A stretch of 64,000 nucleotides of DNA, taken from the IMG/VR virus record IMGVR_UViG_3300031227_000017, positions 1 to 64,000 of that record. One strand, 5' to 3'. Position numbers and translations under genes: made by a program. Below the pieces are notes generated by a model. The model saw only the letters and a list, made by a program, of their open reading frames with translations. It was not told the origin of the DNA and searched no databases. This DNA comes from a virus. Positions 8,599 to 63,071 of this stretch are shown piece by piece; position 1 is the stretch's first letter, and each line of letters starts with the position of its first letter.

Positions 8599-8944
8599 CA
8601 GAACCTCCTTCAATTACAATGGGTCGCAAAACTTTATGGTACTCGAAACCGTCCAGCTCCTGCTGGATAACGGCATGCACCACATCAATGTCTGCGTTCG
8701 TGCTGCGATCCTTCACGTTCAAGCGAAAGACGCCGGGTGAGTCACAGACCACGGAAACCTCTTCCACGTATTTCCCTACATTATGCGTCATGTCCACGCT
8801 ACGCACTGCACGAATGATGGCCCGTGCCATCTCCGTAATTGCCCTGGTAGCTACGACGTCACGCCCTGCTGCAATATTATTCATCGCATGCGCTGTGTCT
8901 TCGTCAGATGGCCCATCTACTTCTGGATCATACTCTTCGCTCAT
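8588..8944 (-). CDS. Unknown small alpha/beta protein
   Basis: 118 residues, acidic N-terminus, then a helix and a beta-rich half. The C-terminus (LRPIVIEGGSDEY) resembles a degenerate form of the window's C-terminal tag, but too weakly to count. ATGA-type overlap with the gene at 8941. Confidence 0.7.
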   Translation of the reverse strand: MSEEYDPEVDGPSDEDTAHAMNNIAAGRDVVATRAITEMARAIIRAVRSVDMTHNVGKYVEEVSVVCDSPGVFRLNVKDRSTNADIDVVHAVIQQELDGFEYHKVLRPIVIEGGSDEY

Positions 8945-9993
8945 TTTTCCACCTCAATATCATCTAACTGAATAACGCGATGCTCACGCTCCACCGGCAA
9001 TTTGCTGTCTCGTATACTTATCTCGCCATGTGGCTCGGGATCGAAGAACAGCTCCGCCCCGTTATGCACTACCAACCATCTAATCAGCATGGTGCCAGGG
9101 TCCATGCTCTGCACCAACACGAGCTGATCAGAAATCGGGTAACGCATGCGAACGCTGTATCGTTTATCCGTCACACTGGCAGCTTGTGCGAAGTTCATCG
9201 TGAAGTCGAACTCGCCCAGCGACACTGGCTCATCGTGCAGCCGCATGACAGCAGTGTGTAACGCCTGTAGCACGCATTGGAGCCCAAAATCGTGTGTCTG
9301 CATATTCTGCTGCTGCGCGAACAACACCGTTGACGTAAATGCCGCCTTGGTACTGCTTGGCAACCGCATCCCGTGCGTCTCATGCCCTCTCGCGAAGTTG
9401 GCGGTATTGCCTGACCAATGTCTTGGGATATTACTACGCAACTGGGACGGGTCCATGCCGGTCATGCCGGTAGGTCCGTACCCGGAAGGTCCGTACCCGG
9501 AAGCACCCATAGGGCGATCGTAACCTGAACCACCAGCAGCCGCACCCGGGGAATCAGTACCAGACGAACTATCTCCATGCTCAAATGACCAGTCCTCAGC
9601 ATCGGAGTCAAGGTGGTGTGGTCTAGCCTCTTCCGCAGCAGGCACACCGACAGGCCCAGGCTCGCCTACCTCGCCGGTCGGACAGCCTTCAGGTCCCGAG
9701 GGCTCACCCGCTGCCCTGTCGCGTAACGCGTCCACCGTTGCACTCACCGCGTCGTTGATTTCCGTCATTTGTGACTCCACACCTGTCATCCTATCCGCTA
9801 ACTCATCCGACCTCTGATGCCGCTGCCGCTGCTCCTCTCGTAAATTATCTACCTCTCGCGATCGCGTCTCTATATCTGCCAAATCTGCCAACGCCGCATG
9901 ACTACGCCGTCGCTGTATGCGTATCCGCAACCAGTGATACACGATGAATGCACCGATTACCCATAGACACAGTAAAAATGACGTCAAACTCAC
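8941..9993 (-). CDS. Membrane-anchored coiled-coil protein with C-terminal RVIQLDD tag
   Basis: 350 residues, GTG start with GGGAG upstream. Residues 4-22 form one hydrophobic transmembrane segment followed by an Arg cluster (RIRIQRRR), giving an N-out, C-in anchor. Residues about 35-95 are a coiled coil, 100-200 a Gly/Pro/Ser linker with short repeats (GYGPSGYGPTG), and 215-335 a folded domain. It ends in EREHRVIQLDDIEVEK, a clear copy of the shared tag. First gene after the terminator at 10013. It may tether a phage component to the inner membrane; function otherwise unknown. Confidence 0.75.
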   Translation of the reverse strand: MSLTSFLLCLWVIGAFIVYHWLRIRIQRRRSHAALADLADIETRSREVDNLREEQRQRHQRSDELADRMTGVESQMTEINDAVSATVDALRDRAAGEPSGPEGCPTGEVGEPGPVGVPAAEEARPHHLDSDAEDWSFEHGDSSSGTDSPGAAAGGSGYDRPMGASGYGPSGYGPTGMTGMDPSQLRSNIPRHWSGNTANFARGHETHGMRLPSSTKAAFTSTVLFAQQQNMQTHDFGLQCVLQALHTAVMRLHDEPVSLGEFDFTMNFAQAASVTDKRYSVRMRYPISDQLVLVQSMDPGTMLIRWLVVHNGAELFFDPEPHGEISIRDSKLPVEREHRVIQLDDIEVEK

Positions 9994-10012
9994 TACATTC
10001 TCCCGCTACACG

Positions 10013-10049
10013 AAAAAAGGCGGCCGGGCGCTAAGCCTCAGCCGCCTTT
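10013..10049 (-). terminator. Strong rho-independent terminator after the tubulin gene
   Basis: Minus strand: AAAGGCGGC, a 16-nt loop, GCCGCCTTT and a continuing T-run (six A on the plus strand at 10013-10018). Closes the portal-to-tubulin unit. Confidence 0.9.
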
Positions 10050-10082
10050 CCCTGGCGTCCGATTCATGTTTGATTATCTGAA

Positions 10083-11246
10083 TTATACACCAAGGAAGTC
10101 TGCGACGCTATCCCGGGTCTCCCCGGCTTTCACCGCAAGCTCCTGAAGACGTTCCAACGGCATCGGCAAGTTCCCCACCATTGCGAGAATCTTGATGCCG
10201 TCGCCCCCGCTGGCCGGGTAGACGCCTGGGAACACTGCGGAATCGGCCGGAGTAAGGATACGATTCATCATCTCGGTGCCGTGGTCCAGCACGCCAACCG
10301 TGATAGGCTCCGGCCCGGACCAAGCTGCGCCACTCACGACGTAGATGAGCCCGGCGACGTTGCCCTGGGTGAGATCGATCGTAGCCAACACATTCCGGCG
10401 AAGCTGATCACGGATGGGCGTACTGACGTCGCTCGGCTCCGCCCACTTCGTGATATTGCAAGCTGCAAAGGCCACAATTCCACTGTCCATGATCTTGCTG
10501 AAATCGGCCGGATCGAATGTCGTACCACCCACATCCTCGCTCTCCGTGCCGGCGAGCCGGTTGAAGGTATGGAGGATCTGAGCCGTACTCTGGTTAGATG
10601 CCGGTTTCTCTTGTGGTACTGGCACCTTGGCACCATAGAGCGTTTTGAACTTCTCGTTGTCGATGAAGATCACAGGGCTCACCTTGAGCTTGTTCAGCAC
10701 CTTCGCCGAGTGGAGAATGTTCTTTGCGCTACGCTGGCCTTCGGAGTCCTTTGGCATGGCCATGATGACACCAACACGCGGAGGTCGCTTCTTCTCCTGC
10801 ATGTAGCGCTTGGCTACCTGGACCACCTTAGCGAACGCCCCGGCACCCGTACCGCCCGCCCCAGAGAGGCAGACAAACACGTAATCCGGGTCCTCGCCCC
10901 AGCAGCGCTGGAAGAGATCATAGAGATCCTCGTCCTTATCCGCTACCAGTCGAGCCGCCGTGTGCGGATCTTTACCTGCACCCCGCGCCTGCCCCACATC
11001 GAGCTTGGCGGTGTCCGGGAACGTCTTCAGCTCGGCCAAGTCGGCAATCGCCGTGTTGACCGCACAGACTCGGGTGTACCCGATTTCCTGAAACGTCTTG
11101 GCTATCCGCCCGCCAGCTTGTCCGACACCCACAAACGCGAATTTGTAAGCTACCGGATGATCAAACTTGTCGGCGATAGTCATCCCCGTAGGGCTCTCAG
11201 GAACCTCTGGTAGGTCCCCAATGTTGAGATGGATGTCATCACTCAT
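10083..11246 (-). CDS. FtsZ/tubulin-like GTPase
   Basis: 387 residues. The GTP-binding core is clear: GVGQAGGR at 40-47, CAVNTAIADL (61-70, as in the FtsZ VAINTD segment), LDVGQARGAGKDP, and the tubulin signature SGAGGTGAG (128-136). The T7-loop counterpart is FDPADFSKIM (244-253), with two Asp placed for GTP hydrolysis on the next subunit. This pattern is closer to FtsZ/CetZ than I expect for phage PhuZ; a database search is needed. It ends in DSVADFLGV, faintly like an FtsZ C-terminal peptide. Phage tubulins are known to form filaments that centre phage DNA or carry capsids. Last gene of the portal unit. Confidence 0.9.
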   Translation of the reverse strand: MSDDIHLNIGDLPEVPESPTGMTIADKFDHPVAYKFAFVGVGQAGGRIAKTFQEIGYTRVCAVNTAIADLAELKTFPDTAKLDVGQARGAGKDPHTAARLVADKDEDLYDLFQRCWGEDPDYVFVCLSGAGGTGAGAFAKVVQVAKRYMQEKKRPPRVGVIMAMPKDSEGQRSAKNILHSAKVLNKLKVSPVIFIDNEKFKTLYGAKVPVPQEKPASNQSTAQILHTFNRLAGTESEDVGGTTFDPADFSKIMDSGIVAFAACNITKWAEPSDVSTPIRDQLRRNVLATIDLTQGNVAGLIYVVSGAAWSGPEPITVGVLDHGTEMMNRILTPADSAVFPGVYPASGGDGIKILAMVGNLPMPLERLQELAVKAGETRDSVADFLGV

Positions 11247-11266
11247 AATATCACTGGACTCCCTGG

Positions 11267-11809
11267 TTACTCCGGGACCGATGCGATCTGGGTAAGGTCA
11301 AACCCGTCGTCCTCGGCACCAGCATTTTCATCCTGAACGTCGTCGGCTGCCATCTTGTTGAGCTCTACGACGACCTCATTGTACAGAGGCAGATTCGCCG
11401 ATTGCAGCTCGACCAGAGCTGTATTGTAATCATCCGCACCCATTGATGCAAGGCTTTCCGCCGTGACGCGAGCCTGCGAAGGCCTCTCCGAGATGGTGGA
11501 ATCGCCGAGTTGTAGCTCGGCAGTGCCGGCCTGCGCCGGCGCGGGGTCCTGCGTGGCAGGTCTCGCGACGGTTGCCGCAACCTCGGCCGTCACGACCGGA
11601 TCGATGACAATCGCCGGCTCCGGCAACGGCTCCGGTGTCGGTGACGGTGGAGCAACCACAGCCGCCGCAACAGGCTCCTTGGGAAAATGATTCGCGACAG
11701 GCAACGCCCTGGGTTTCGCACCCGCGACGCCGACTGGCGTGAAATTCTTCTGTGAAGACGGTGGCGGCTCTCTGTCCCGCAGTCGCTTACGGTACTTGAT
11801 TTGACTCAT
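11267..11809 (-). CDS. Pro/Ala-rich protein encoded just before the tubulin
   Basis: 180 residues. A basic N-terminus (KYRKRLRDR) is followed by a Pro/Ala/Val-rich disordered middle (25-110) and an acidic, helical C-terminal 65 residues. No recognised domain. Its position 20 bp upstream of the FtsZ-like gene makes it a candidate filament adaptor or regulator, by context only. Confidence 0.65.
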   Translation of the reverse strand: MSQIKYRKRLRDREPPPSSQKNFTPVGVAGAKPRALPVANHFPKEPVAAAVVAPPSPTPEPLPEPAIVIDPVVTAEVAATVARPATQDPAPAQAGTAELQLGDSTISERPSQARVTAESLASMGADDYNTALVELQSANLPLYNEVVVELNKMAADDVQDENAGAEDDGFDLTQIASVPE

Positions 11810-11823
11810 CGCTAAATCTCCTT

Positions 11824-12876
11824 TTAAGCAAATATCCGTCGAATATTAGACCCAAAGGTCTCACGACGGAGGTGAAGGCCCTTCGACACGCTTTGCTGCA
11901 ACGAATACAGCCGCTCCGTGTCTAAGGCGTCATTCCGAAATACATCATCCATGAGAGCATAATCAGGAGCAGCACAAGGCAACCCTATATTATTCTTCTC
12001 TTCGGACGTGTCAACCAGAATCCCGTGAACACCGTTCACAAACATCTCGGACATCGGCTGACAGTTAAATGTCACAACAGGTGTCCCCATTGTCACCGAT
12101 AACAGCCCTACCATACAAGTGCTTTCCCAGTGTGTTGGCCAGAAAGTTACATCATGCTGACGGAAGAGCAGCGGCCGGGACGCTGGATGCACCCCCTTAT
12201 ATAATGAAAGTCGACCCGGGAATTGCTTCTTCAATTGCTTCAGTAAGCGCTTCCCAGGCGACGCAATTGTTGACGAATTATAAACCACGCTGAGCGAGGC
12301 TTTCGGACATCCCTCTAAGGCTCGTCCGGCCACTTCCAGGGCTGTCAATTCTACACGCCTCGCCACGCCGTCGTATATCGGCATGAGTATCTTTGGTGCG
12401 GTCGGCTGGTAGTCCTGCGGCTTCTTGCAGATTGGCAAACCCACGTCCCAAGGAACCACAACCACGTTATCCAGTTTCCATTGATAGCCGAGAAACTGTG
12501 CCGCCGCCATCGTTGGCGCGATCACCATGTCAGCTGCCTGTAAGGCTGCCCGGTCAGCTACCCGCGACTCCATGCTCAGCTCATGCCACAGCACAAAAAT
12601 ACATGTGCGACGCTGCTGTTTCTTCGCATACTTGACTTGCTGCGGGTGCGGGATACTCGTCCACAAGACGATGTCGCACTGTTGCAGCCACTTCGTAAAT
12701 TTAAGGTCACGGCTTCGCCGAACCTGTGCATCCCACTTGTTCGACACGCGACGCGGTGTGTCAGTCATTGTTAATATCGACACGTCATGCCCATGTGCGA
12801 CAGCCGAATCCGCAATGCGTAATCCTGCATAAGTCGCTTCATGAAAACAGTAACGGGTACAGATGCCTAGATTCAC
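11824..12876 (-). CDS. Glycosyltransferase, GT4-like (GT-B fold)
   Basis: 350 residues, the length of a compact GT-B enzyme. N-terminal Rossmann half: residues 1-170, with the Gly-rich acceptor loop replaced by ATYAGLR. C-terminal half: WPTHWESTCMVGLLSVTMGTPVVTF, the GT4 nucleotide-sugar motif with Glu before the helix and GTPVV after, then EMFVNGVHGILV. It probably transfers a sugar from a nucleotide-sugar donor; acceptor unknown. 3 bp from the GT2-like gene upstream, in the portal unit. Confidence 0.8.
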   Translation of the reverse strand: MNLGICTRYCFHEATYAGLRIADSAVAHGHDVSILTMTDTPRRVSNKWDAQVRRSRDLKFTKWLQQCDIVLWTSIPHPQQVKYAKKQQRRTCIFVLWHELSMESRVADRAALQAADMVIAPTMAAAQFLGYQWKLDNVVVVPWDVGLPICKKPQDYQPTAPKILMPIYDGVARRVELTALEVAGRALEGCPKASLSVVYNSSTIASPGKRLLKQLKKQFPGRLSLYKGVHPASRPLLFRQHDVTFWPTHWESTCMVGLLSVTMGTPVVTFNCQPMSEMFVNGVHGILVDTSEEKNNIGLPCAAPDYALMDDVFRNDALDTERLYSLQQSVSKGLHLRRETFGSNIRRIFA

Positions 12877-12879
12877 AGC

Positions 12880-13716
12880 TCAACCCTTGAAAGCCTTCAC
12901 ACTATCTGCCATAGCGTACGGGGGATTGACATAAAAACCAATGCGACCCTTGGAGCCCCGATGCCACGTGCGTCGAGGACGTACCAATGAAACCACACCA
13001 AAATGCTGACACACAAACGGCACCAATAACCCTGCCCAGAGTCCGTTCCGCGATGCTGCTTTCTTCAATTGATCATCAAACTTCTGTTTTGTATTATGCT
13101 TGCGCCTGAAGAAATTATCAAGCGTAGTAAACCCTTCCCGTGTTACGTACAAACACTGCGCGGTGATCCCGCCCTCGCGCACACGCTGCTTATCGCAGTT
13201 CTTTATTTTCTTGTTCAGATGCAGTCCCGAGAGGATTGCCAGCGGTTTAGCGAATAATAACTCATCCGCCGCCACCTGCGTCAAGCGTTCGTACCAATCC
13301 TCTTTGAATATCACATCATCTTGTAGCAAGATGACCCCAGGAGCATCAGGATATTTGTCGAACATGCGACAGACAGCTTGGCAGGACGCATTGACCACGC
13401 CAGCCGGCTTCTTCCCTAGCCGCACGACACCGACACGTCCACGCAATCCTACAGGTGGCTTCGCACTTTTGTTGATTACGTCAAGCCCCAACTTCTTCCA
13501 CATGGCATGTTGTGGCCACTTGTGTTCCGACCCTGTCCCTCGGGCGGTAGTGTAGTACGTTCGGGCCTCCGTGGTGTCGCTGGCATCATCAAACACAGTC
13601 AGCGGCACAGCTTCAGGAAGCCGTGTCGCCGACAATGATCGTAAGGTCACGTCAAGGTAATGAATACGGTTACGTGATATGATGCCAATCGGCACCAGTT
13701 TACCAACTTCTGCCAA
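12880..13716 (-). CDS. Glycosyltransferase, GT2-like (GT-A fold)
   Basis: 278 residues. The N-terminus PIGIISRNRIHYLDVTLRSL is the usual GT-A entry strand and helix, followed by VFDDASD and a metal-binding acidic motif LLQDDVIF. A basic patch follows. Donor and acceptor cannot be told. Being directly downstream of the portal-like gene, it might act on virion proteins or the host envelope; this is inference. Confidence 0.8.
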   Translation of the reverse strand: MAEVGKLVPIGIISRNRIHYLDVTLRSLSATRLPEAVPLTVFDDASDTTEARTYYTTARGTGSEHKWPQHAMWKKLGLDVINKSAKPPVGLRGRVGVVRLGKKPAGVVNASCQAVCRMFDKYPDAPGVILLQDDVIFKEDWYERLTQVAADELLFAKPLAILSGLHLNKKIKNCDKQRVREGGITAQCLYVTREGFTTLDNFFRRKHNTKQKFDDQLKKAASRNGLWAGLLVPFVCQHFGVVSLVRPRRTWHRGSKGRIGFYVNPPYAMADSVKAFKG

Positions 13717-13726
13717 TTCTCTGCTC

Positions 13727-15844
13727 CTAGTTTAAGTCGATAAACCTGCTCTGCTTACCGAATTCCCGTTGAATGTCCGCTTCCTTCCTTCCGTGATACC
13801 ACGCCATGAGCTGCTGCTCCGCGGAGGAGACGTCTCTTGGCGTGTTCTCCTCCAGCACTCGCAACACGGGATTGTCGACCGCCGCGGCCTGCTTCCCATA
13901 CTGCTGCTGCAACACCATCTCTCGCCCTTGCAGTGACGCGTCTCGTTTGATCTCGTCCATCTGGGACTTGACCAACGCATGAATCGTCGGATCTTCCTGC
14001 TTGAGCTGAATGAGGAAGGAATCCTTCTGTGACTCTGGCATGGCTATGGCCTGCTGGGCCAACGTGGACGCCGTGGTATTCATCTCCTCGACAGACTGTG
14101 GCTTGTTAGGCAGCAATGGCTGCCCGGCCATGAACGCATACACGGCACCCTGCGGGCCTTGCGGCTGACCCATAGCGCCCATCGGCGGAGCAGGCTGCCC
14201 ACCCGGGGCAGGTGCGGCTGGAGCGCCACCGCCCGGCATCGCGCCGGGCATTCCCTGCATGGCTGGCATCTGCCCACCCGCGGCTGCCGGATCTCCACCA
14301 GGAGGTGGTTGAGGCAGTGCCATCTCATCCATGACGGCTGACTGCTCCATCTCTTCCTGCATATCCTGCGTGGCCTCGGCCGTGATCCGTTCTTCTTCCA
14401 GCTTGCGTCGCTCTTCTTCGGCGTACTCGATGCCGACGCTGGCGAGCCCGGTGGTTCGACTGACCTGTCCACCCATCATGAGCTGGAGCTTGGCCATCTG
14501 ACGATTCAAGTCGTCCGCATGGGTGACCCGCTGCAATCGAGCGTTCACAGGTTCCCACGACATGACTTGACTGATCTTATCAACGAGCTTGTTGAGGAAG
14601 CGATTCAGATTATGTACGAGGTGACTCCAGTTGGCCTCAAACAGCCGCAGCGCGGCTGGAGCCGACTGAACGCTCAATGAGCCCTTGTAGAGCTCCACAG
14701 GGATACCGATGGACGTCAGCAGCGTATCCATGCCCAATTCCAGCAAGTCCTTCGGAGCGAGCTGTGTAGCGTCACCACCGAGGGCCTGATAATCGATCGG
14801 GAACGGCAAGATGTTCCAGCGAGCTGGATCTCGTCGCCGCTGCTTGAGCATGTTATTCACACGCCCTGTGAACGACCCGAGATTGATGCTTAGGACTGGG
14901 TCATTGACCTCGCCACCCTGGCCTGGGCGTGGCTGCGGAGTGATCACGCGGAACGGGATCACGTAATCCAAGGCGATCGCTTCATTGTAGCGATGAAGCA
15001 CCTGGACGTACCACGCCTGTCGGAAGTTGGCCAGCACACGCGAAATACCCCAGCCGCGATTTCTCACGCCGGCCAAGGCTTGTTCTTTCATGTGGTAGAC
15101 AACGTCGTTGTCAAACAGCAAGGCCTGATTATTCTGCACGGCCTCGACGATCTCCCAACTGGCCCGCTCCAGATGGAACAGATGACCCTTGCGCACCAGA
15201 TTCTGGTAATCCTCGGGGATTCGCCAGATGAACGACGCGTCGTCCGTGTGCGGGTCCCACAGCACGTCTATCTCGTGTGGGTTCCATCGTTTGATCTTGA
15301 TCTGGCCATTCTCGCCAGATCGACGATCGATATGCTCCCAGGCCCCTGTGTAATCACACTCGGGACATTTCGCGTTGAACTGATACCCAGTCCACGAGAA
15401 ATTGAACATGTCCGTGTTGTAAACTCGCTTCAGCGGTAACTCCAGCCCGCAGTCGGGGCAGGCAAGATACCTGCGGAATGGGACCAGCAGACTGGTGAAG
15501 CTGTTACCGTATACCAGATAGTCCAGAGCGACGGTGGCCAGCACGTCCTTGATACCCAGGGTATCGTTGAGGAAATCCTCGTACTTCTTCTTCTCCTCGC
15601 GGCCGATCCGTTCATCTCCGTCACCCGCTGACACGATCTCAATGTCGGTCAGGAAGTATGAGATGATCCGAGCAAGCGCAGAACGATATGGCCCATTGGC
15701 CATAGCGATATACTCACACCAGCGTAATGCGTCCCTGATAGTCGTGGGCATGGCCGTGGAGGCCACATCACAAAACGGGTCAGGAAAACGATCGTCAGCG
15801 TGCGTATTACTCCCTTGTGTGGGAGAACTAAATAGGTTGGCCAT
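13727..15844 (-). CDS. Portal-like protein with zinc-ribbon insertion and tagged C-terminus
   Basis: 705 residues. The portal call rests on order and local features rather than a unique motif: an N-terminal helical region, YLVYGNSFTSL, a long middle domain and the segment TSIGIPVELYKGSLS before LRLFEANWSHLVHNLNRFLNKLV, typical of portal wing/stem regions. Unusually, residues about 128-170 carry two CPxC pairs (CPDC, CPEC), a zinc ribbon. The tail (about 500-590) is Met/Pro/Gly-rich, then helical, and ends in KQSRFIDLN, matching the shared tag. Portals form the dodecameric DNA gate at one capsid vertex. Confidence 0.65.
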   Translation of the reverse strand: MANLFSSPTQGSNTHADDRFPDPFCDVASTAMPTTIRDALRWCEYIAMANGPYRSALARIISYFLTDIEIVSAGDGDERIGREEKKKYEDFLNDTLGIKDVLATVALDYLVYGNSFTSLLVPFRRYLACPDCGLELPLKRVYNTDMFNFSWTGYQFNAKCPECDYTGAWEHIDRRSGENGQIKIKRWNPHEIDVLWDPHTDDASFIWRIPEDYQNLVRKGHLFHLERASWEIVEAVQNNQALLFDNDVVYHMKEQALAGVRNRGWGISRVLANFRQAWYVQVLHRYNEAIALDYVIPFRVITPQPRPGQGGEVNDPVLSINLGSFTGRVNNMLKQRRRDPARWNILPFPIDYQALGGDATQLAPKDLLELGMDTLLTSIGIPVELYKGSLSVQSAPAALRLFEANWSHLVHNLNRFLNKLVDKISQVMSWEPVNARLQRVTHADDLNRQMAKLQLMMGGQVSRTTGLASVGIEYAEEERRKLEEERITAEATQDMQEEMEQSAVMDEMALPQPPPGGDPAAAGGQMPAMQGMPGAMPGGGAPAAPAPGGQPAPPMGAMGQPQGPQGAVYAFMAGQPLLPNKPQSVEEMNTTASTLAQQAIAMPESQKDSFLIQLKQEDPTIHALVKSQMDEIKRDASLQGREMVLQQQYGKQAAAVDNPVLRVLEENTPRDVSSAEQQLMAWYHGRKEADIQREFGKQSRFIDLN

Positions 15845-15866
15845 CCCTAGCTCCTGGATATATTTT

Positions 15867-15881
15867 GGTACTTAGGAACCA
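15867..15881 (+). repeat. Dispersed 15-bp motif, copy 2 (diverged)
   Basis: GGTACTTAGGAACCA, one mismatch to the consensus, covering the stop codon of the small gene at 15872. Confidence 0.7.
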
Positions 15882-16048
15882 GATGGGTCGACGCGTCCCG
15901 CCACTTGATCCGCCAAGCGATGTGTCACGTCGTCATCCAGATTCTGGGTCTGTGAAGCTGCGGTAGCCTGCTTTTCTCCTGGTCGTTGGACATTCCGATC
16001 TTCGACATCGGGTGTCTGACCCGGCTCTACAACGGCTCGCTTTTCCAT
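15872..16048 (-). CDS. Small polar protein before the portal
   Basis: 58 residues from ATG 16048, preceded by AGAAGGAGG; the longer frame from 16114 overlaps the upstream gene and has no ribosome site. Highly polar (Glu, Arg, Gln, Asp), no Cys, probably disordered or a short helix. Function unknown. Confidence 0.65.
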   Translation of the reverse strand: MEKRAVVEPGQTPDVEDRNVQRPGEKQATAASQTQNLDDDVTHRLADQVAGRVDPSGS

Positions 16049-16068
16049 CGGCGTACCCTCCTTCTGGG

Positions 16069-17190
16069 TTACTCTGGCGGCAGCGCACCGGTTTCCGTGA
16101 TCATCAGAGTACAATGCTCCAAATGACCAACGGCGTACTGCACACCCGTTGTTTGTACCCGATAAACCTCCTCCGTACCAGTGACATTCATGGCCAACGG
16201 TGGAGGATTATCACTTTCGGCCACCGGCGGGAACCACCGAGGCCCCTGGTATCGATTGTCGTAAACGAGAATGATAAATCCAGGCTGCACGATCACGTCA
16301 TGGTAATACGCCCTGTTCGTGCCATACCCTTCCATCTCGAAGACGACCTCGATCGTCGGCTGCGCCGGCCCTGCCTGAGCGCGAGAACCAGCTGGGGCTT
16401 CGTCACGCAGATCGATTGCCCTGAGCTCACGAGTGGGTTCGGGTGCTGGCGGCTGCTGGTTAAAGGCTGCCAGAGGAGCTACACGGCGCTGCGGGGCTGC
16501 GTGGGCCGCGGTTTGAAGCGTTGGAGCAGGAATCTCCTGCTGTACCGCAGGTTGCGGTGCAAACTGTTGTACAGCCACAGGTTGCTGTGCCTGCGGCGGC
16601 ATCGGTTGAACGGGTTGTGCAACATACGGCTGCACGGGCTGCTGTGATTGATGGTGCATAACCGGTTGCTGTGCAACAGGTTGAGCCATCTCAAGCGGCT
16701 GCTCTTGCAACGCCGGGCCTGCCCCCGCGACAGTTGCGGCGATACCGTGCATGGTTGCCGCCCCTCGCAGTCGCAACGTCTCGATGCTCGTCGGTTCCGG
16801 TGTGACGTCGCGGGCCATAGCGATCCCAGCGGCCACAGTCTGCTGATTGATGTCGCCAAGCCGGACGCGTGAGCTCTGCCCGGCAATATGCGGATCAATC
16901 ACGACCTCGATGTCGCTGGTTACGTGTGGGGACGTGCCCTGAGGGATGCCTCCCATCGTGGAACGTGGGATAATGGTACCATTCAACCCTGCGGGTCCGG
17001 GTCGCATTACGCCTGTCACAGGCGTGCCAGCAGCCGTACGCTCACCCGCGGCTGGGCGGTACCCATATTGCGTCTCAGGCGTAACAGGTCGGCCGGTGTC
17101 ACGCTGGGGTAGAGGCTGTGCATCTCCATAGCCTCCGGTCTCTCCGTCGAAAAACGGGTCCAGCTGCACAATCCTATTGCGTTCTGTCAT
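16069..17190 (-). CDS. N-terminally tagged (RNRIVQLD) protein with Gln/Pro linker
   Basis: 373 residues from ATG 17190, chosen because AGAAAGG lies seven bases upstream (ATG at 17196 is too close). Residues 3-11 are ERNRIVQLDPFF, the shared tag. There is a polar stretch to 130, a Gln/Pro-rich linker (about 165-255) and a folded C-terminal domain (about 280-365) with aromatic beta strands. First gene of the portal-tubulin unit. Function unknown; possibly structural. Confidence 0.7.
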   Translation of the reverse strand: MTERNRIVQLDPFFDGETGGYGDAQPLPQRDTGRPVTPETQYGYRPAAGERTAAGTPVTGVMRPGPAGLNGTIIPRSTMGGIPQGTSPHVTSDIEVVIDPHIAGQSSRVRLGDINQQTVAAGIAMARDVTPEPTSIETLRLRGAATMHGIAATVAGAGPALQEQPLEMAQPVAQQPVMHHQSQQPVQPYVAQPVQPMPPQAQQPVAVQQFAPQPAVQQEIPAPTLQTAAHAAPQRRVAPLAAFNQQPPAPEPTRELRAIDLRDEAPAGSRAQAGPAQPTIEVVFEMEGYGTNRAYYHDVIVQPGFIILVYDNRYQGPRWFPPVAESDNPPPLAMNVTGTEEVYRVQTTGVQYAVGHLEHCTLMITETGALPPE

Positions 17191-17226
17191 TATCATACCT
17201 TTCTGCGATTACACTGCTTATCTGCT

Positions 17227-17290: not shown

Positions 17291-17334
17291 AAAAAAAAGT
17301 CTACGACCGACCCGGGGTCACCCCCGAGCCGATC
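17291..17334 (-). terminator. Rho-independent terminator
   Basis: 13-bp GC-rich stem with a few G-T pairs (17322-17334 with 17305-17317), 4-nt loop, then TAGAC and eight T on the minus strand. Ends the long array coming from higher coordinates. Confidence 0.85.
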
Positions 17335-17343
17335 GCACACGTA

Positions 17344-28211: not shown

Positions 28212-28864
28212 GATATTTTCTTCTCCAAAAGGGTTTCAGCGAAATGGTGAAGTGAGCCGTACAACTGCGTATCAGACTCCAGCCCTGTGTCTTCGGGACT
28301 AATGGCCGCGAGCTGCATGCCCAACGACCGCCCGAACTCCAAGTTGTCAACCGTGTCAACGTGCCAGCTGTCTTTCATCTGCACGTTATAGACCGGTTGG
28401 ATCTCTTTGTACCACAAGCCCAGCTTCGGTTTCCGGCACTCGCAGCCAGCCTCCGGCTTGTGGAAGCAGACAGCTGACCATCCGGGGAAAGTCAACGGCC
28501 CAGCGACATCTGACCTACCATTATAAAAGTGATGCCAGAAATAACTCTCTCGCACCTTGGCCATCAATTCGTAATAGGCATCCTTCGTGAACAAGCCACG
28601 ACCGACGCCTGACTGGTTCGTGGCAATCACCACGACGTAACCTGCCCGTTGCAGCTCGTAAAGAGCCTCGGGCACACCGGGAAGCCATTCCCATTTATCG
28701 AATGACCCAACCTCGCCTCTGTCAGCGGTGTTGATCACTCCGTCGCGAGCCATCACGATAAGGCGTACGTAGGTATCAGGATCAAGTAGCTGGTTCCGCG
28801 TGCGGATCGAGCTGAATGACCCTTTCCCTCCCGTGGCCTGTTTTCTTCGCTTCTTGTTTCGCAT
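28169..28864 (-). CDS. GmhB-like HAD protein lacking the nucleophile
   Basis: 231 residues. Strongly like heptose-1,7-bisphosphate phosphatase (GmhB) and HisB-N: a DGVIN start motif, VVIATNQSGVGRG, the zinc loop CFHKPEAGCECRKPKLGL and a final DTVDNLEFG acidic motif. The first motif reads ARDGVIN (39-45) where GmhB has DRDGxIN: the nucleophilic Asp is Ala (codon GCT), the acid/base Asp41 stays. As it stands it should not hydrolyse phosphate by the usual route. It may be a binding protein or decoy, or use another mechanism. The N-terminus is basic and overlaps the 28782 gene. Confidence 0.82.
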   Translation of the reverse strand: MRNKKRRKQATGGKGSFSSIRTRNQLLDPDTYVRLIVMARDGVINTADRGEVGSFDKWEWLPGVPEALYELQRAGYVVVIATNQSGVGRGLFTKDAYYELMAKVRESYFWHHFYNGRSDVAGPLTFPGWSAVCFHKPEAGCECRKPKLGLWYKEIQPVYNVQMKDSWHVDTVDNLEFGRSLGMQLAAISPEDTGLESDTQLYGSLHHFAETLLEKKISWTPVTLQEPAATS

Positions 28865-29366
28865 AACGCTCCATCAATGTGTTTGCAATCTGAGATAGAT
28901 CAAATTTCGTAAGAACCGGTGGTTCTAGTTGTTCGCTCGTATGCTTCGGGTACGCATTATATATCACAGAGCTGGCGTCCACGCCTAGCGTGTCACACGT
29001 CGTGCGGCCGCCATGCTTTTCGTCTGGTGGCTCGTACCCTTCAGGCATCTCCACCCATTCGCCGCCGTCAATCAGCTCTTCTAGGCCCTGTAATTCATCA
29101 TGACTTAACGACTCACCATCTTCGTAACAATCATCCCACGACGCATAGTAACGTGGCGCGTAGTGAAAGTAAGTCACGCGATGGAATGAGGCTTCTTCAA
29201 TAACCGCAAATGCTTCGGTAAGGCCAATCAGCTTCAGGAGCCACAACGTGTATTCTAACGTCATCGGTATGACAGTGTACGTGAAACCATCCAAATCACC
29301 TGACCCGCTCGTGTAGCCCACAATGTGCATCACTGGCTGGTCAGTTTTCTTCTTGTCCTCCGTCAT
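28782..29366 (-). CDS. Unknown protein with C-terminal RVIQLD tag
   Basis: 194 residues; AAGG upstream of ATG 29366. The body (5-165) looks like a folded alpha/beta protein with an acidic loop. It ends GRERVIQLDPHAEPAT, one of the clearest copies of the shared tag, joined by a Lys/Arg-rich linker. The last 27 codons overlap the GmhB-like gene. Function unknown. Confidence 0.7.
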   Translation of the reverse strand: MTEDKKKTDQPVMHIVGYTSGSGDLDGFTYTVIPMTLEYTLWLLKLIGLTEAFAVIEEASFHRVTYFHYAPRYYASWDDCYEDGESLSHDELQGLEELIDGGEWVEMPEGYEPPDEKHGGRTTCDTLGVDASSVIYNAYPKHTSEQLEPPVLTKFDLSQIANTLMERYAKQEAKKTGHGRERVIQLDPHAEPAT

Positions 29367-33477: not shown

Positions 33478-34284
33478 TCACAATTCAACAATGCGTCGCG
33501 GCGGCATTACCGGCGGCGACTGGATAATAGCTGGCGTGCCAGTAGCTTCATGCAACGTGGCCGCTACGCCCGGATCAAAATCAGCGCCGCACGGGGGCTG
33601 ATCAAATCCACGGCGCGTGGCTGCCCCTTCTCGCCCTAGTGTGTCCGCGTTGACCCGCACACCTGTCTTGAAATTGCAGACCCTCGCGTCCTGCTGTCGC
33701 ATCATCTCACCAAGCATGGTATCTCCACCTCGGTGATCCAGTGCCTTCCACGGATAACTCCAGCGATACAACCACTCGGTGCGGATGGTCCACCAGCCGC
33801 CTGTGATAAACTTGATACGACCAAGGTTGACCGGCTGGCCGTTATACCACGGCTGGGCTTGCACCCACTCACGCTGCTGCCCCTGCCAGTCGATCGTGTA
33901 GACCGAGCCGAGCATGTCCGCGTTGACCATAGACTGCTCCACAAGGTGCAGCCAATAGTCCTTACCCGGTGCGCTGAGCTCATAACCGGTCAGGTACGAG
34001 TCATCATCAAACCACATGAAATACGGCGTCTCGACCGGCTTGATACCGTGGACCATCTGCCGCATCATCGGATACTTATGGATGTTCTCGCTGGATTCCC
34101 AGATGCAGTCATCCGGCACCCACGATTTCACCCAATCGGCTACGTCATCAGATACCTGATTGAGCCCTACCCGAAGATTCAAATGATCCTTGTCGACCGT
34201 GCTAGCAATCGACGTCAGGCACCGCTCCGCAAGTCTGGGGTTATCACCGTAAAGCAGCACCCCGATAGTGAATTTGTCCTGCAT
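33478..34284 (-). CDS. Glycosyltransferase (GT-A, GT2-like) with C-terminal RRIVEL tag
   Basis: 268 residues from ATG 34284 (AGGAG eight bases upstream). The opening KFTIGVLLYGDNPRLAERCLTSI is a GT-A nucleotide-binding start. MWFDDDSYL supplies the acidic metal site, and ITGGWWTIRTEWL matches the acceptor-side region. It ends PPRRIVEL, a truncated form of the shared tag, after a Pro-rich linker. A glycosyltransferase carrying the tag suggests delivery to a particular site or complex. Confidence 0.8.
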   Translation of the reverse strand: MQDKFTIGVLLYGDNPRLAERCLTSIASTVDKDHLNLRVGLNQVSDDVADWVKSWVPDDCIWESSENIHKYPMMRQMVHGIKPVETPYFMWFDDDSYLTGYELSAPGKDYWLHLVEQSMVNADMLGSVYTIDWQGQQREWVQAQPWYNGQPVNLGRIKFITGGWWTIRTEWLYRWSYPWKALDHRGGDTMLGEMMRQQDARVCNFKTGVRVNADTLGREGAATRRGFDQPPCGADFDPGVAATLHEATGTPAIIQSPPVMPPRRIVEL

Positions 34285-34295
34285 AGAAGGCACTC

Positions 34296-52172: not shown

Positions 52173-54301
52173 AGTTGAATCACCGAATCAAATAAGGGTG
52201 CTAGGTCCCGTTCATGCGTGACAATAATGCACTGTAGGCCGCGGGTGGCTGAGAATGTTCTCAACTGCCCTAATACTGGCTCGAACCCACGGATGTGGTG
52301 TTCGTCGAGGTACGCTGTCGGCTCATCAAGGTAAAGCGCACCTACATTATCCGCGAACATCCGGTTCAACGCCATACGGAAAGACAACGCCAATACGACT
52401 TTTTGTCCTTCCGACAGCCTTTCAGCCGGTTGTACCGTACCGCTCTCGAATGATGCCGTGAACGAGAGTCCCTCGTCCGCAGCCACCCGATATGGCGTAC
52501 CAAACATCTCCAAATACTCATTCATGCCCACCTGGAGACGTTGCAGATTACGTTGTGCCACAAATCGCGGAGCCCCGTCTTTGCCGACGATCTCCCGCAT
52601 GCTCGCAGCATGATCAACCCAGCCCCTGAGCATTTCGGCCTCTTCAGCTACCTCCGTAGCCCTGGCCAATTCACCCTGGATACGGGTAATCGTGGCCTCT
52701 GCGGCCCCAATACTGGTTTCCGCGTCCTGCCGAGTGCGAACCGTTCGCTCCCACCCTGCCTTGTTCTCGATCGCCTGCGCGACCTGCTCCGTCGTGTACG
52801 GTACCAACTTCACCAGCTGGTCATTGTACCCTGTGAGCTGCTGCTCCATCTGCTGGTACCGTCCCTGCAATCTTGCAAGTTCCCGATCATGCTCCCCGAG
52901 ACTTGCCTCGGCGGCCTTAACGCTATCCAGCATAGCCGAATGTTGCGAGATGGTGGATTCCAGGACTTTCTCGTCCAATTCCTCCACCGGCTCGTCCGGG
53001 AGTGACCTGAGCGTCTCCATCGCCTGGGTCTTTCTCGCCTCGATCTGCTGGATCGCGTTATTATATACGCCCACAGCGTCATTATACATAAAACTATGGC
53101 TAAGTCGATTCGACAACGTGTCCGAATTCGCCCTGAGCGTCGGAAGTCGCCTGATCGCTTCTTCCCGTTGTCCCTGCAACGCGGCAGCGGCCGTACCGCA
53201 AGTGGGGCATTTAGCCGCGTCAGCGTCAAGCGCGTCGACAAATATGGTCAACGCACTTATCTCACCACTGAGGTTCTCCTTTTGACGCTGAGCTGCCTCC
53301 ACCCCTTCGGCGTCCAGATAGTCTGCCCGGGGCGTCGGCACATCCACGGCTGCTGCCGCATCTGCTGCTTCTTCGATAATCGCAGTCTGGGCTTGTCTCG
53401 CCTTCTGGTTGCGTCTCGCCGCACCCATCCTGCTCAGCGTAAGTGACGCTGCGTGAGAGTCTGCTGCTCCACTGTCACGAATAGTCCGAACAGTTACAAG
53501 AGACGCCGCCGTACCTTCCCGTGACCGCCGCTGATAATCAATATCGGCGGCGGTACCGGCCATCGTCGTCGCCAAGGTATCCCGCTGGGTTTCGATCTGT
53601 ACGCGACGATTATGCGTCGTAATGACATCGTTGTTCGCGTCAATCTGTCCCAGGCAGTGCTGAAGCTCGGGCCAGTCAACAAGCGATGCCTGCGCTGCCG
53701 CCAACTTCAGCGTTTGTCCTTCCAGCTCCTGCGTGAGTTCGTCAATATCGACACCCACGGACGGGATCTGCACGTCCTTCAGCTGCGTACCGATCGCCGA
53801 ATGTACGACGCCGGCCTTCTCCGTGTGGAAGAGCTTCTGGAATTGTGCAGCCCGTTGGGCCGGCTTCTTGTCGAGGAACCCAAAAATATCACTCTGGGCC
53901 ACAACCACGATGTCGTTGATGATGTCGGTAGACACGCCGAGGATCTGCTCGATCATCGCCGTAACTTCCTTGTCACCTTCGATCGTCACACCATTCTGAA
54001 TTTGTAACGTCGCCACCGGGCGAGACGGTCGCAGGTTTCGCTGCACTGTAGCGCGCACGCCGGCATGGCTGAACACGAGCTTCACATAGGAGCTCTGTGA
54101 CGGCTCCGCTCGATCGTAAATATTCGCAGACTTGTTGCCTGCGTTTGGATTGTCTCCGGTAAGCGCGAAACGTATTGCCCCAAGACAATTACTCTTCCCG
54201 CTGCCATTCTGTCCGAGTATTGCCGTGAGGCCGTCCCGTAATGGCAAATCCCGCCACGCGTGCTGGCAGAAATTCAGCATCGTTAGATGTTCACACTTCA
54301 T
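52169..54301 (-). CDS. sbcC: Rad50/SbcC-like ATPase (gp46-like)
   Basis: 710 residues. Walker A ILGQNGSGKSNCL in the first 40 residues, Q-loop VVVAQSDIF, a central coiled coil interrupted by a zinc-hook CPTC (about residue 365), ABC signature LSEGQKVVLALSF, Walker B LYLDEPTAYLDE and the H-loop VTHERD. Shorter coiled coils than bacterial SbcC, as in T4 gp46. Forms an end-processing complex with the Mre11-like protein at 55857. It ends DSVIQL, natural for the family and not counted as a tag. Confidence 0.92.
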   Translation of the reverse strand: MKCEHLTMLNFCQHAWRDLPLRDGLTAILGQNGSGKSNCLGAIRFALTGDNPNAGNKSANIYDRAEPSQSSYVKLVFSHAGVRATVQRNLRPSRPVATLQIQNGVTIEGDKEVTAMIEQILGVSTDIINDIVVVAQSDIFGFLDKKPAQRAAQFQKLFHTEKAGVVHSAIGTQLKDVQIPSVGVDIDELTQELEGQTLKLAAAQASLVDWPELQHCLGQIDANNDVITTHNRRVQIETQRDTLATTMAGTAADIDYQRRSREGTAASLVTVRTIRDSGAADSHAASLTLSRMGAARRNQKARQAQTAIIEEAADAAAAVDVPTPRADYLDAEGVEAAQRQKENLSGEISALTIFVDALDADAAKCPTCGTAAAALQGQREEAIRRLPTLRANSDTLSNRLSHSFMYNDAVGVYNNAIQQIEARKTQAMETLRSLPDEPVEELDEKVLESTISQHSAMLDSVKAAEASLGEHDRELARLQGRYQQMEQQLTGYNDQLVKLVPYTTEQVAQAIENKAGWERTVRTRQDAETSIGAAEATITRIQGELARATEVAEEAEMLRGWVDHAASMREIVGKDGAPRFVAQRNLQRLQVGMNEYLEMFGTPYRVAADEGLSFTASFESGTVQPAERLSEGQKVVLALSFRMALNRMFADNVGALYLDEPTAYLDEHHIRGFEPVLGQLRTFSATRGLQCIIVTHERDLAPLFDSVIQL

Positions 54302-55253
54302 TCTTACCTTCCCTCAATTCGACAACTCGGTGTTCTCGGGTCTTCGCCTCCACGATCGGAGGATTGTAATTCGTCAATGCCCATTGATTATAATGCCGCT
54401 TAATTGCCTGAAGCGGATCAATCCGAAACCTATGGTAATCCGGCACAGCGACAGCTACGAGCTGCGGCAACGGATACTTCCAATCCACGCGACACTGCGT
54501 GACCGGATTCTCAACAGCCGCCCCGCAGAAGTGACAAGCACGAAGCCCAACACCGCCGCCACAATAGGCACAGTTTATAGCCAGTGTTGCCTGCGCCCCA
54601 CCCAGCCACTCTGCCATGCCTGCGAGATTACTAGACAACCCGATAATCGCTCGCTCCATCGTCTCAACAAATGGGTGATTAGTGTCTGGGCGTTCTGGGT
54701 CATAATCGTCAGATATTAGCTTCTGATCCAGGCCCGCCATGACAGAGCATATCTTACGAAAACCACCAACGGTAGTACGGTGATCCGGCTCCACGATTCG
54801 GAACTCCACAGTCTGCCGCGAGCTGTCCCACGCCAGTCGACTGCCCCACTCCACTTCCGCGTAATTTGCAACACGTTCACGATAATCAAATAACGGCTCC
54901 CGGTCGGAACCGACACGTATGTGCTCCCGCGCTGGGCCGTCATCACCGATCCCGGCTACATACGACTCTTTCCGCCGGTTGGCGTAATGATAGAACAACC
55001 TGCGAAGATTGCCGGGGCCGCCGGATCGAAGCCGGAAAACATGCTCTGCACCCCGTACAGCGATAGGCGGCGAGATGAACGGAATACCACCCACGGTATC
55101 CTCCGCCGACTGTTTCCATAATTCCTGCACCTCACTACCCGCAAGATGCGGACACAGACACGACAGATCAAGCGGTCCTCGAAGCGTCGAGGCACCTTTA
55201 TCTATTGCGTCCCGCAATTTTGTTGCGTAAGTCTGAAAGTTAGGTGGCATCAT
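54291..55253 (-). CDS. Zinc-ribbon protein with C-terminal REHRVVEL tag
   Basis: 320 residues between the Rad50 and Mre11 genes. Helical and beta N-terminal two-thirds, then a double CxxC ribbon (CAYCGGGVGLRACHFC, about 225-240), a short domain and the tag TREHRVVEL at 304-312. Its overlap with both nuclease-complex genes suggests a third subunit or adaptor of that complex; this is inference. Confidence 0.7.
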   Translation of the reverse strand: MMPPNFQTYATKLRDAIDKGASTLRGPLDLSCLCPHLAGSEVQELWKQSAEDTVGGIPFISPPIAVRGAEHVFRLRSGGPGNLRRLFYHYANRRKESYVAGIGDDGPAREHIRVGSDREPLFDYRERVANYAEVEWGSRLAWDSSRQTVEFRIVEPDHRTTVGGFRKICSVMAGLDQKLISDDYDPERPDTNHPFVETMERAIIGLSSNLAGMAEWLGGAQATLAINCAYCGGGVGLRACHFCGAAVENPVTQCRVDWKYPLPQLVAVAVPDYHRFRIDPLQAIKRHYNQWALTNYNPPIVEAKTREHRVVELREGKNEV

Positions 55254-58539: not shown

Positions 58540-58568
58540 ATAATAGGCAATTATGCAATGGTTGTCAA
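58540..58568 (-). promoter_or_regulatory. Sigma70-type promoter
   Basis: Minus strand: TTGACA (58568-58563), exactly 17 bp, TATTAT (58545-58540), the best consensus promoter seen in the window. An 8-bp inverted repeat (58537-58557) covers the -10. The -35 overlaps the stop codon of the hldE-like gene. Start expected near 58533. Confidence 0.75.
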
Positions 58569-60022
58569 CTCTTCTTCGTAGAGTTCTTTGCATTATCGTC
58601 CCCGAGCCGTGACGAGCTTAAATTGAAAATAATAGGGGTCAACGACAGTTTTCCGCCGTGTGACGCCACATAATCTGCACCTGGGATAGGTTCTGCGGCC
58701 GCGTCTTGCCCCTTCACCAGAACATCTGGCTTCAACTGACGCACAAGCGATTCGACATCCCCATCGAACAAAAATACGGTGTCCACAACATCCAACAACG
58801 CCAGATGTGACAGTCGATAGCTCTCGCCAACGAGCGGTCTATTGTCGCCTTTGAGCTCCCGCAAACTGGTGTCATCATTACACGCCACCACAAGACAGTC
58901 GCCTTGCCGTACTGCTGCGCGGAGCAGTTCGATATGTCCAGCATGCAACCCGTCGAAGCAACCATTGGCTAATACGATTGACTGTCGTCGCCGACGCCGT
59001 CGCCGTACAAAGGCCAAGGCGTCATCACGATCCATACATTTGGCAGCCCATCCGGTAGCCTCGTATCGAAATTCGTCGACGGCGTCACGATGAGCCGGCA
59101 CGACACCGCGATGACGCACCACCATGCCCGCAGCGTACATAGCAAACTGCACGCAAGTATCAAACGACTTGCCTTCCAAGTACCCGACGGCCATCGCCGC
59201 CATCACAGTATCACCAGCGCCGCACACATCATAAATCTGTTGCGGACTGGACTGAAAACTGTGGATCTGGTTATCCCAGGGATTGAAATACATGCAACCG
59301 TCCGACCCCTGCGTCATGAGCACGGAGCCAAAGTTACCAGCTCGCCTCAACTCCTGCAAGATGGACTCAGGCTCCCCAGCGAACACACCAGGATGCACGA
59401 CGTTGTAGCGATCCACCATATCACGCGCTTCGTTGCTGTTGGGCTTCAGCAAATCCACGTTCTCGTATTGTTCAACGCAGTCCGGGCGGCAGTCTACGAA
59501 AATCGGTATGGCGAGTTCCTGACATCGCTGCCGAAGCGCACTCCACACCGCGTCCGTCATCACGCCTTTCGCGTAATCTGCCACACATACCAATCGTACG
59601 GCCGTGCCCTCTGCGAGCCCGTAATTGAGCCCCGCTATCACGGCTTTGTCATTGCTCAATGGCAGCGTCTCATCATCCGCACGACACAGATACTGACCAC
59701 CGGCCATGATCCGCGTCTTCACGCTCGTGCGTGTACCGTCCGGCCCTTGCGGCAAACACGACACTACACCAGCTTCGTTGAGGAGTTCCCCAACCCTTCG
59801 CCCGGCAGCGTCGTCGCCTACCACGCCAAGCAGCTTCGCATGTCCGCCGAGCGTAACTATGTTGTGGGCGACGTTACCCGCACCACCTACCGATTCCGTG
59901 AAGTCGTCTTGGGCTACGACAGGAGCCGCTGCCTCGGGCGATACACGGGTCATTTCCCCGCATACCGCCCTATCCAGCATCACGTCACCGATCACCAATA
60001 CCGTAGGTTTCGGATCACTCAT
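58565..60022 (-). CDS. hldE: HldE-like heptose-7-phosphate kinase / ADP-heptose synthase
   Basis: 485 residues from ATG 60022, close to E. coli HldE (477). Domain 1 (1-320), a ribokinase/PfkB kinase: VGGAGNVAHN at 45-54 and the catalytic GAGD at 268-271. Domain 2 (about 345-470), a nucleotidyltransferase: GCFDGLHAGH (354-363, HxGH) and a GESYRLSHLALLD-like end. Makes ADP-heptose precursors of LPS core in Gram-negatives. A six-Arg run (341-346) joins the domains. The isomerase and epimerase partners are not in the window. Confidence 0.92.
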   Translation of the reverse strand: MSDPKPTVLVIGDVMLDRAVCGEMTRVSPEAAAPVVAQDDFTESVGGAGNVAHNIVTLGGHAKLLGVVGDDAAGRRVGELLNEAGVVSCLPQGPDGTRTSVKTRIMAGGQYLCRADDETLPLSNDKAVIAGLNYGLAEGTAVRLVCVADYAKGVMTDAVWSALRQRCQELAIPIFVDCRPDCVEQYENVDLLKPNSNEARDMVDRYNVVHPGVFAGEPESILQELRRAGNFGSVLMTQGSDGCMYFNPWDNQIHSFQSSPQQIYDVCGAGDTVMAAMAVGYLEGKSFDTCVQFAMYAAGMVVRHRGVVPAHRDAVDEFRYEATGWAAKCMDRDDALAFVRRRRRRRQSIVLANGCFDGLHAGHIELLRAAVRQGDCLVVACNDDTSLRELKGDNRPLVGESYRLSHLALLDVVDTVFLFDGDVESLVRQLKPDVLVKGQDAAAEPIPGADYVASHGGKLSLTPIIFNLSSSRLGDDNAKNSTKKS

Positions 60023-61361
60023 TTGCCTTGACTTCCACGTTGATGACACCGTCAGGTGTCGTGAAATTGTAGGTACCGATAATATTCTCGCGGGGCGGAA
60101 GCTCCGCTACCGGATGCTCCATGTCCTCGCCACGAATGACGAACGGATCAACGTAAGGACCCTGCTCGCCATTCACCACGTCGATACGTGCCATCAGCCC
60201 TTCCGCGACGGGCACGGAGAACGGATAGATTGCATCGCCAATCGCGACATTACCCATCGGTTGCCCTTTCACGGCAAGTGCCGACATGACCGACTGGTAC
60301 TCGGCTTTACGGATCGTGATCGATCCAACACCGATCTCCGCCAACGCTGCACCTTCCGGCGTCTCGGGCGGTGTCGGCAACGAGTCGTCGATCACCTCGA
60401 ACTTCTGGATACCGAGCCCCTGCATCTGCTCGCCGGTGTCGGTTGTGAAGTCCACATAACTCTTGCCAGCCGCATCAGGCGCGGTGATGGCGTCCACGAC
60501 GCCGCGAAACTGCCGCTCGTTTGGGCCGTCATACCGCACACGTTGCCCGGCTGCGGACGGTCGAACCGCGTTCGCCGCTTTCTTCTTCCCTCCGCCGCCG
60601 CCAGTCTTGCCCGTCCGTGGCGCTCTGGGCGCCGGCTCCTCCTTGAACGCACCAGCAAGGAATTGCTCCTTCATGGCGTCATTCACGAGGAACTCCTGCA
60701 ACGTCATGGGCACGGGCGTATTCTGACTCTCCGCCTCGCGGATGATGTCAATATACAACGCCGTGTACTCGACCACCTCCTTGGCCGACCACTGGTGACA
60801 GCTTTGCTCCTCTGCCGCCTTCTTCGTGCGGGGCAGCAGTGCCTTGAGCGCGTCGTTCGGGTGCTTGAGGTTCTCGCCGTCGAAGTCCGCGATCGTCGCG
60901 TACAACGTCAAGAACGTCTCGAACGGCAGCGTGGGCGTCAGCTGACGCATCCACAGGTAGTCGACGACGAGCTTGATACGCTCACCGTCACCCTTGTACC
61001 GCTCACAGCCGCCCTGTTTCGGGAATTCCCGGAGACATTGCAGGATCGACGGCTTCTCGTCCGCGATGGCCGCGTGTTGCTCCGCCACGGTCGTCTGCTC
61101 CGCCAGCCCGGCCTGCTGCACCTGAACCGGTGGAACGGACGTAGGCTGCGGCGGCACGACAGCCGCCACGGGGCCTGTAGGCGCCGGGGTCGGCGGCGGG
61201 GCCGTCGGCATCGGTGGAACCTGCGTCGGCCCGGAACCGGCCACTGGCGACCGCGCCGGCGGCTGTGCCGGCGGTTGGGCCGGCGGCTGCGCTGGGGGCT
61301 GCTGCCCTGGTGCCGTCTGAGTCTGCGGGGGTACGCCCCAATTCGCTTGATGCTGCGTCAT
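60015..61361 (-). CDS. Unknown protein: Pro-rich start, two folded regions
   Basis: 448 residues. Residues 1-95 are Pro/Ala/Gln-rich with AQPP repeats, 100-230 a helical domain with three Cys, 235-270 a Gly/Lys linker, 275-445 beta-rich. GGAG upstream of ATG 61361. Overlaps hldE by 8 bp. The 91-bp gap to 61453 holds only a weak short hairpin. Function unknown. Confidence 0.65.
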   Translation of the reverse strand: MTQHQANWGVPPQTQTAPGQQPPAQPPAQPPAQPPARSPVAGSGPTQVPPMPTAPPPTPAPTGPVAAVVPPQPTSVPPVQVQQAGLAEQTTVAEQHAAIADEKPSILQCLREFPKQGGCERYKGDGERIKLVVDYLWMRQLTPTLPFETFLTLYATIADFDGENLKHPNDALKALLPRTKKAAEEQSCHQWSAKEVVEYTALYIDIIREAESQNTPVPMTLQEFLVNDAMKEQFLAGAFKEEPAPRAPRTGKTGGGGGKKKAANAVRPSAAGQRVRYDGPNERQFRGVVDAITAPDAAGKSYVDFTTDTGEQMQGLGIQKFEVIDDSLPTPPETPEGAALAEIGVGSITIRKAEYQSVMSALAVKGQPMGNVAIGDAIYPFSVPVAEGLMARIDVVNGEQGPYVDPFVIRGEDMEHPVAELPPRENIIGTYNFTTPDGVINVEVKANE

Positions 61362-62700: not shown

Positions 62701-63071
62701 TCGCCGCGAAGCGGCCCTCCTTTATGTTCAATTGCCACGCCAAACCACGCTACCAGCGTAGAGCGCATCTGCTCTATTGTCTCGTAATCAAAACGATGCG
62801 AACTGTAACAAACACCGTCCCCGTGAAACCGAAGACGCATATAATACAAGCCACGATCGATGTCCTTGGTAATGTCCAGCATCTCAAAACGCCGTAACTT
62901 AGCCGTCGACATACCGAGATCAAACAACGGCATGTAGATCACGTCAAGACAATCAAAGATATTCGGCGGCTTCCAGGGATGCGGTGATGGTTCTGCTATC
63001 TCCACCGCCGACATATCCTCCCGGTCCACGGCAATAACGCGTTCACGTTGCGAGTTGGTACCTAATGCCAT
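62697..63071 (-). CDS. Tagged small protein, paralogue of the 63071 gene
   Basis: 124 residues. Residues 8-17 QRERVIAVDRED carry the tag; 35-120 are a folded domain. It aligns with the 63071 protein: shared IF start, YYxxLR strand, G-C-x-x-S turn and a GG near the end. The two genes abut by TAATG, so a tandem duplication. Function unknown. Confidence 0.7.
   Translation of the reverse strand: MALGTNSQRERVIAVDREDMSAVEIAEPSPHPWKPPNIFDCLDVIYMPLFDLGMSTAKLRRFEMLDITKDIDRGLYYMRLRFHGDGVCYSSHRFDYETIEQMRSTLVAWFGVAIEHKGGPLRGE

Follow-up and report, generated by a model that had tools for sequence, protein, structure and literature searches.

A predicted phage tubulin family with recurrent linkage to portal and terminase genes

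What does a tubulin-like GTPase do in a transcription unit that also encodes a phage portal? Known phage tubulins are tied to DNA partition (TubZ) or to nucleus-forming phages (PhuZ). The question is raised by a gene at 10083..11246 (minus strand) of the window, the 64,000-nucleotide stretch analyzed here (positions 1 to 64,000 of IMG/VR virus record IMGVR_UViG_3300031227_000017). The gene starts with ATG and encodes 387 amino acids on the minus strand; frame 1 of the plus strand is broken by a stop in the same interval. Its product is a member of the tubulin/FtsZ superfamily, both by the Pfam cut-off (Tubulin, PF00091: 44.4 bits, cut-off 33; E 3e-11) and by fold. Solved structures matched by the sequence are those of TubZ/RepX (E 4e-11), CetZ2 (3e-9) and FtsZ. 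The AlphaFold2 model (pLDDT 86, pTM 0.87) finds TubZ 4ei7 as its best Foldseek match (E 1e-20), followed by CetZ2 (6e-20), with TM values of 0.74-0.77 against TubZ. The FtsZ equivalog NCBIfam TIGR00065 is not reached (35.8 bits vs. 295.2 required), and PhuZ surfaced only via weak PHROG matches from two relatives.

The GGTGAG signature and the T7 loop with two aspartates, both singled out in the original prediction, are present. The T1 nucleotide-binding loop reads G-V-G-Q-A-G-G-R (11106..11129, minus strand), the T4 signature loop G-G-T-G-A-G (10839..10856, minus strand; in fuller form S-G-A-G-G-T-G-A-G-A) and the T7 loop F-D-P-A-D (10503..10517, minus strand; in fuller form T-T-F-D-P-A-D-F), with D245 and D248 as the two catalytic-type residues. 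Conservation was counted over 83 full-length family members, and all 83 keep G40, G42, Q43 and G45 in T1, G131, G132, G134 and G136 in T4, and F244, D245 and D248 in T7. The GTPase site of the window tubulin is predicted to be intact. The first 35 residues (11142..11246, minus strand) form an acidic, low-confidence tail (pLDDT <50 for residues 1-20) containing D-L-P-E-V-P, which is the variant found in its clade of a P-D-I-P-x-P-type family motif. Across the family, the N-terminal tail is 60 residues long on average, with a high content of D, E and P; the strict motif [PG][DEN][ILM][PLM]xP occurs in 54 of 83 tails vs. a shuffled-tail mean of 0.4, a difference that is somewhat overstated because the pattern was picked after inspection. 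C-termini are short and a long C-terminal tail is absent, so that a contact through the C-terminal tail, in the style of TubZ or PhuZ, is unlikely.

Relatives of this protein are abundant in uncultured phages. A single-protein scan of viral contigs with the window tubulin returned nothing, and alignment-based scans were needed; these pattern-based scans of IMG/VR, a redundant collection with many partial contigs, yielded 24 loci at first and at least 109 later, from which 89 distinct genes were gathered. Among 50,697 phage records only Bacillus phage G matched (tblastn), as a distant relative. No cellular relative appeared in 84,980 species genomes (two scans with family patterns, which limit their reach), and no description of the family was found in the literature.

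In the tree (LG+F+R5, 74 sequences, 362 columns) the family forms its own clade with support of 100, and this clade is firm. It groups with TubZ and PhuZ, apart from CetZ and FtsZ (support 99), and its most likely sister group is TubZ and PhuZ together, with phage G on their side (support 75); this deep placement is tentative because path lengths reach 4-9 substitutions per site and some reference tubulins are incomplete sequences read off alignments in print. The search and tree proposed with the original prediction uphold the superfamily assignment and its exclusion of PhuZ, the GTP-binding residues being intact and the family lying outside the PhuZ clade; the judgment by eye that the protein is nearer FtsZ/CetZ than PhuZ is not supported. 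Membership of CetZ is not supported by the same tree either (support 99, with two partial CetZ sequences as the only references), and membership of TubZ fails since the family lies outside it. Identities to the family are 22-23% for CetZ, 20-22% for TubZ, 18% for FtsZ and 12-18% for PhuZ, which seems remote only because its branch is long. Judged from its sequences, this is a previously unrecognized phage tubulin family, marked by its own clade, the P-D-I-P-x-P-type tail and linkage to the portal.

The gene neighborhood bears directly on function. Co-transcription with a portal-like protein and with the Pro-rich neighbor at 11267 had been proposed, and it is supported by the layout of the unit, all of it on the minus strand: a terminator, the gene at 16069-17196, a small open reading frame, the portal, two glycosyltransferases, the Pro-rich protein, the tubulin and a second terminator. 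From portal to tubulin the intergenic gaps are 10, 3, 14, and 20 nt. The upstream intrinsic terminator (17302..17337) has a 16-pair stem and a T run (-34.7 kcal/mol, z -6.9), and the one directly after the tubulin (10015..10049) an 11-bp stem and a T run (-30 kcal/mol, z -4.0). Given the two flanking terminators and the tight gaps, the tubulin closes a portal-containing unit. In two related loci, L005 and L036, a terminator 3′ of the tubulin is not obvious and the next gene begins at once. The first gene encodes a Pro/Gln-rich protein (16069..17196), whose homologue precedes the portal gene in most of the portal relatives, and the small frame (15872..16114) has a similar counterpart in L036; both are small and structural-looking. 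The Pro-rich protein of 180 amino acids (11267..11809), immediately upstream of the tubulin, is homologous to the neighbor protein in L005. A group 1 glycosyltransferase (11824..12876; PF13692 4e-8, PF00534 2e-7) is preceded by a probable family-2-type enzyme (12880..13716), called by eye and without a match in Pfam, PHROG, or NCBIfam, whose homologues lie beside the portal in L018, L019, L023, and L036. Glycosyltransferase-like genes, again by eye, are unusually many in this phage (11824-13716, 22929-23711, 33478-34293, 57574-58440 and record positions 105652-109998); together with an HldE-like fusion (58565-60049), they suggest that it makes or modifies glycans. A long collagen-like GPTGPTG repeat protein lies at the contig end (record positions 110002-111543).

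The portal itself (13727..15844, minus strand; 705 amino acids), at first a guess, is supported by structure comparison: the 50 best Foldseek matches are all phage portals, headed by T4 gp20, with a model whose mean pLDDT is only 57. With the protein annotated as portal in Salmonella phage Arash it shares 26.6% identity (E 1e-56), and it has no Pfam match. A Zn-ribbon-like insertion carries C129, C132, C160, and C163 with zinc-ribbon spacing, invariant in 18 portals of the window lineage. The terminase of this lineage was not found in a PF03237 search. A C-terminal module of 66 residues (13910..14107, minus strand) recurs as a diverged copy in the protein directly upstream of the tubulin in L036 (E 1.5e-8) and L005 (E 1e-6). 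The Pro-rich protein of the window did not itself score for the module (the region in question is about 11351-11470), and the module is not specific to tubulin loci because a small protein of the tubulin-less L019 and L023 has it too.

The portal also shares a terminal motif with many proteins of its phage. R-x-[IV]-[DNQE]-[LV]-[DN] ends, or sometimes begins, 20 of 131 otherwise unrelated proteins (shuffled mean 2.1, maximum 8), all encoded on the minus strand, among them those at 8941-9993 (ending in HRVIQLDDIEVEK), 13727-15844 (ending in SRFIDLN), 28782-29366, 33478-34293, 54291-55253, and 63071-63466 and, beyond the window, at record positions 71702-72853, 74963-75526, 93540-94700, and 95415-96587. 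With the pattern held fixed, 22 of 200 proteins carry it in the relative G001, the phage of L005 (vs. 3.5), and only 10 in the relative G022 (vs. 3.8). The motif, which the tubulin does not have, resembles a tag for recruitment or sorting used throughout the phage.

The link to the packaging vertex, drawn in the original prediction from one genome, recurs in distant phage lineages and is far stronger than a single genome could show. Of 89 loci, 36 have the tubulin no more than 60 nt from a portal gene (directly after the portal in 31, between terminase and portal in five) and eight more have it at 0.7-4.4 kb, giving 44 near-portal loci in addition to the window. These comprise at least three arrangements, two very distant portal families and separate groups of uncultured phages. 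In one distant lineage the order is terminase-portal-tubulin, the last two no more than 60 nt apart and structural genes next, or terminase-tubulin-portal; the neighbors there are a T4-type large terminase (PF03237 5e-11, PHROG 1e-24) and a portal (PHROG 7e-9). Treated as a character on the tubulin phylogeny, proximity to a portal requires four changes vs. at least 11 in shuffles. Direct profile comparison connects the two portal families only weakly, and because they are barely alignable, a single stretch of similar DNA passed down by descent does not account for the linkage. No portal was detectable near about 42 of the 89 loci. Among 25 loci with portal relatives of the window, the tubulin follows in L005 (71%), L016, and L017 (both about 50%), and that of L036 (69%) was picked up by the tubulin scan; about 20 portal relatives are without a tubulin, also when whole records are searched, many of these records being fragments. 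Tubulin is present in only eight of 80 distant-portal loci and absent from 40 with full flanks, which makes it an accessory gene, most portal relatives being without it. Comparison of distant portals with and without tubulin gave no clear interaction signature and no tubulin-specific signature beyond phylogeny.

A reading that falls a little short of probable, and that is preferred here, is a GTP-hydrolysing tubulin made late with the portal that polymerizes and serves head assembly and packaging as a positioning cytoskeleton. The protein very probably polymerizes, and its protofilaments would bring procapsids to the phage DNA or hold them there, contact being made through the portal vertex or through an adaptor to which the P-D-I-P-x-P tail at the N-terminus binds; alternatively, the filaments may keep the packaging or replication site in place. 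The fold, the invariant sites, the two-terminator unit, the recurrent linkage and the portal module in the neighbor protein of two relatives argue for a positioning role; the portal-free loci, the clade found in a replication cluster (below), the portals without tubulin and the missing interaction signature argue against it. There are precedents for both parts of such a process: capsids travel to DNA along PhuZ filaments (PMC13282480), and SPP1 procapsids are initiated on the portal at the membrane and later shift into the DNA compartment (PMC13212656).

A filament that positions genomes, by centring as in PhuZ or by segregation as in TubZ, is possible though on the unlikely side. It would move DNA or replication factories, and proximity to the portal would reflect late-gene clustering only. 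The tree-nearest relatives, TubZ and PhuZ, do move DNA, and in one family clade (L103, L117, L102, L097, L118) the tubulin sits between RecA-like/endonuclease genes and DnaB/primase/PD-(D/E)XK genes, which keeps DNA positioning alive as an explanation. However, the neighbors of the window tubulin (portal, glycosyltransferases, Pro-rich protein) include no TubR-like partner gene, the region 8900-16100 around it holds no iteron (tubC-like) repeat array, and in about half of the loci the tight linkage that recurs is with portal and terminase rather than replication genes. Procapsid and DNA positioning become one job if the filament organizes the site where DNA is both made and packed.

More doubtful is a stronger form of the preferred positioning role, in which the family represents a third class of phage tubulin: its filaments would attach to the portal vertex and carry procapsids to the sites of packaging, in phages with no phage nucleus gene detected. 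Attachment, in this proposal, would be direct or would run through the tail at the N-terminus and an adaptor carrying the portal module. A separate family of this size, common among uncultured phages and with recurrent portal and terminase linkage, would mean that virion assembly driven by a cytoskeleton is not confined to phages in which a nucleus has been seen, and how procapsids reach the DNA, a long-standing question, would become testable with one gene.

It is improbable that the tubulin merely occupies a variable, often swapped slot beside the portal without any functional tie to packaging. In the window lineage the glycosyltransferases between portal and tubulin do lie in a variable region, and the interval from portal to thymidylate kinase varies, is often without tubulin and is also filled by glycosyltransferases, a sulfotransferase and others; against this, lineages whose portals are unrelated and which have no slot of this kind show tight linkage independently, with the tubulin on either side of the portal gene. 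Still less probable is an inhibitor or re-user of host division that acts on host FtsZ or its partners by co-assembly or titration, since the FtsZ-type active site and a D-I-P-x-P tail that could mimic the FtsZ C-terminal peptide (consensus D-I-P-x-F-L) are outweighed by an identity to FtsZ of only about 18%, a gene that belongs to the portal unit, a tail without the aromatic/basic end of that peptide and the fact that phage inhibitors of FtsZ are, to our knowledge, small unrelated proteins.

Compared with known systems, the family is closest to TubZ, the plasmid and phage partition tubulin (RepX/TubZ, 4ei7), with which it shares the best sequence and fold match, the T4/T7 chemistry and the broad clade (99). 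It differs from TubZ in its separate clade (100), the lack of TubR and of a tubC-like array, the adjoining portal and terminase genes, and a tail that is N-terminal instead of long and C-terminal. PhuZ, the spindle tubulin of Chimalliviridae, is likewise a phage tubulin, and it sets the precedent for moving capsids and centring DNA. Unlike PhuZ, at 12-18% identity, the family falls outside the PhuZ clade, and chimallin gave no match in the 16 tubulin-bearing records searched, the window record and 15 others (a single-sequence search of records that may be fragments). The only cultured-phage match by tblastn, the putative FtsZ-like gp138 of Bacillus phage G, has 21-23% identity to the family and groups with TubZ/PhuZ; its surroundings at 79 kb are concerned with nucleotide metabolism, and the phage G portal gene is a long way off at 12.6 kb. 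CetZ and FtsZ resemble the family in fold and nucleotide site, and the T1-loop Q is common to CetZ2 and the family, but both stand outside the clade formed by TubZ, PhuZ and the new family.
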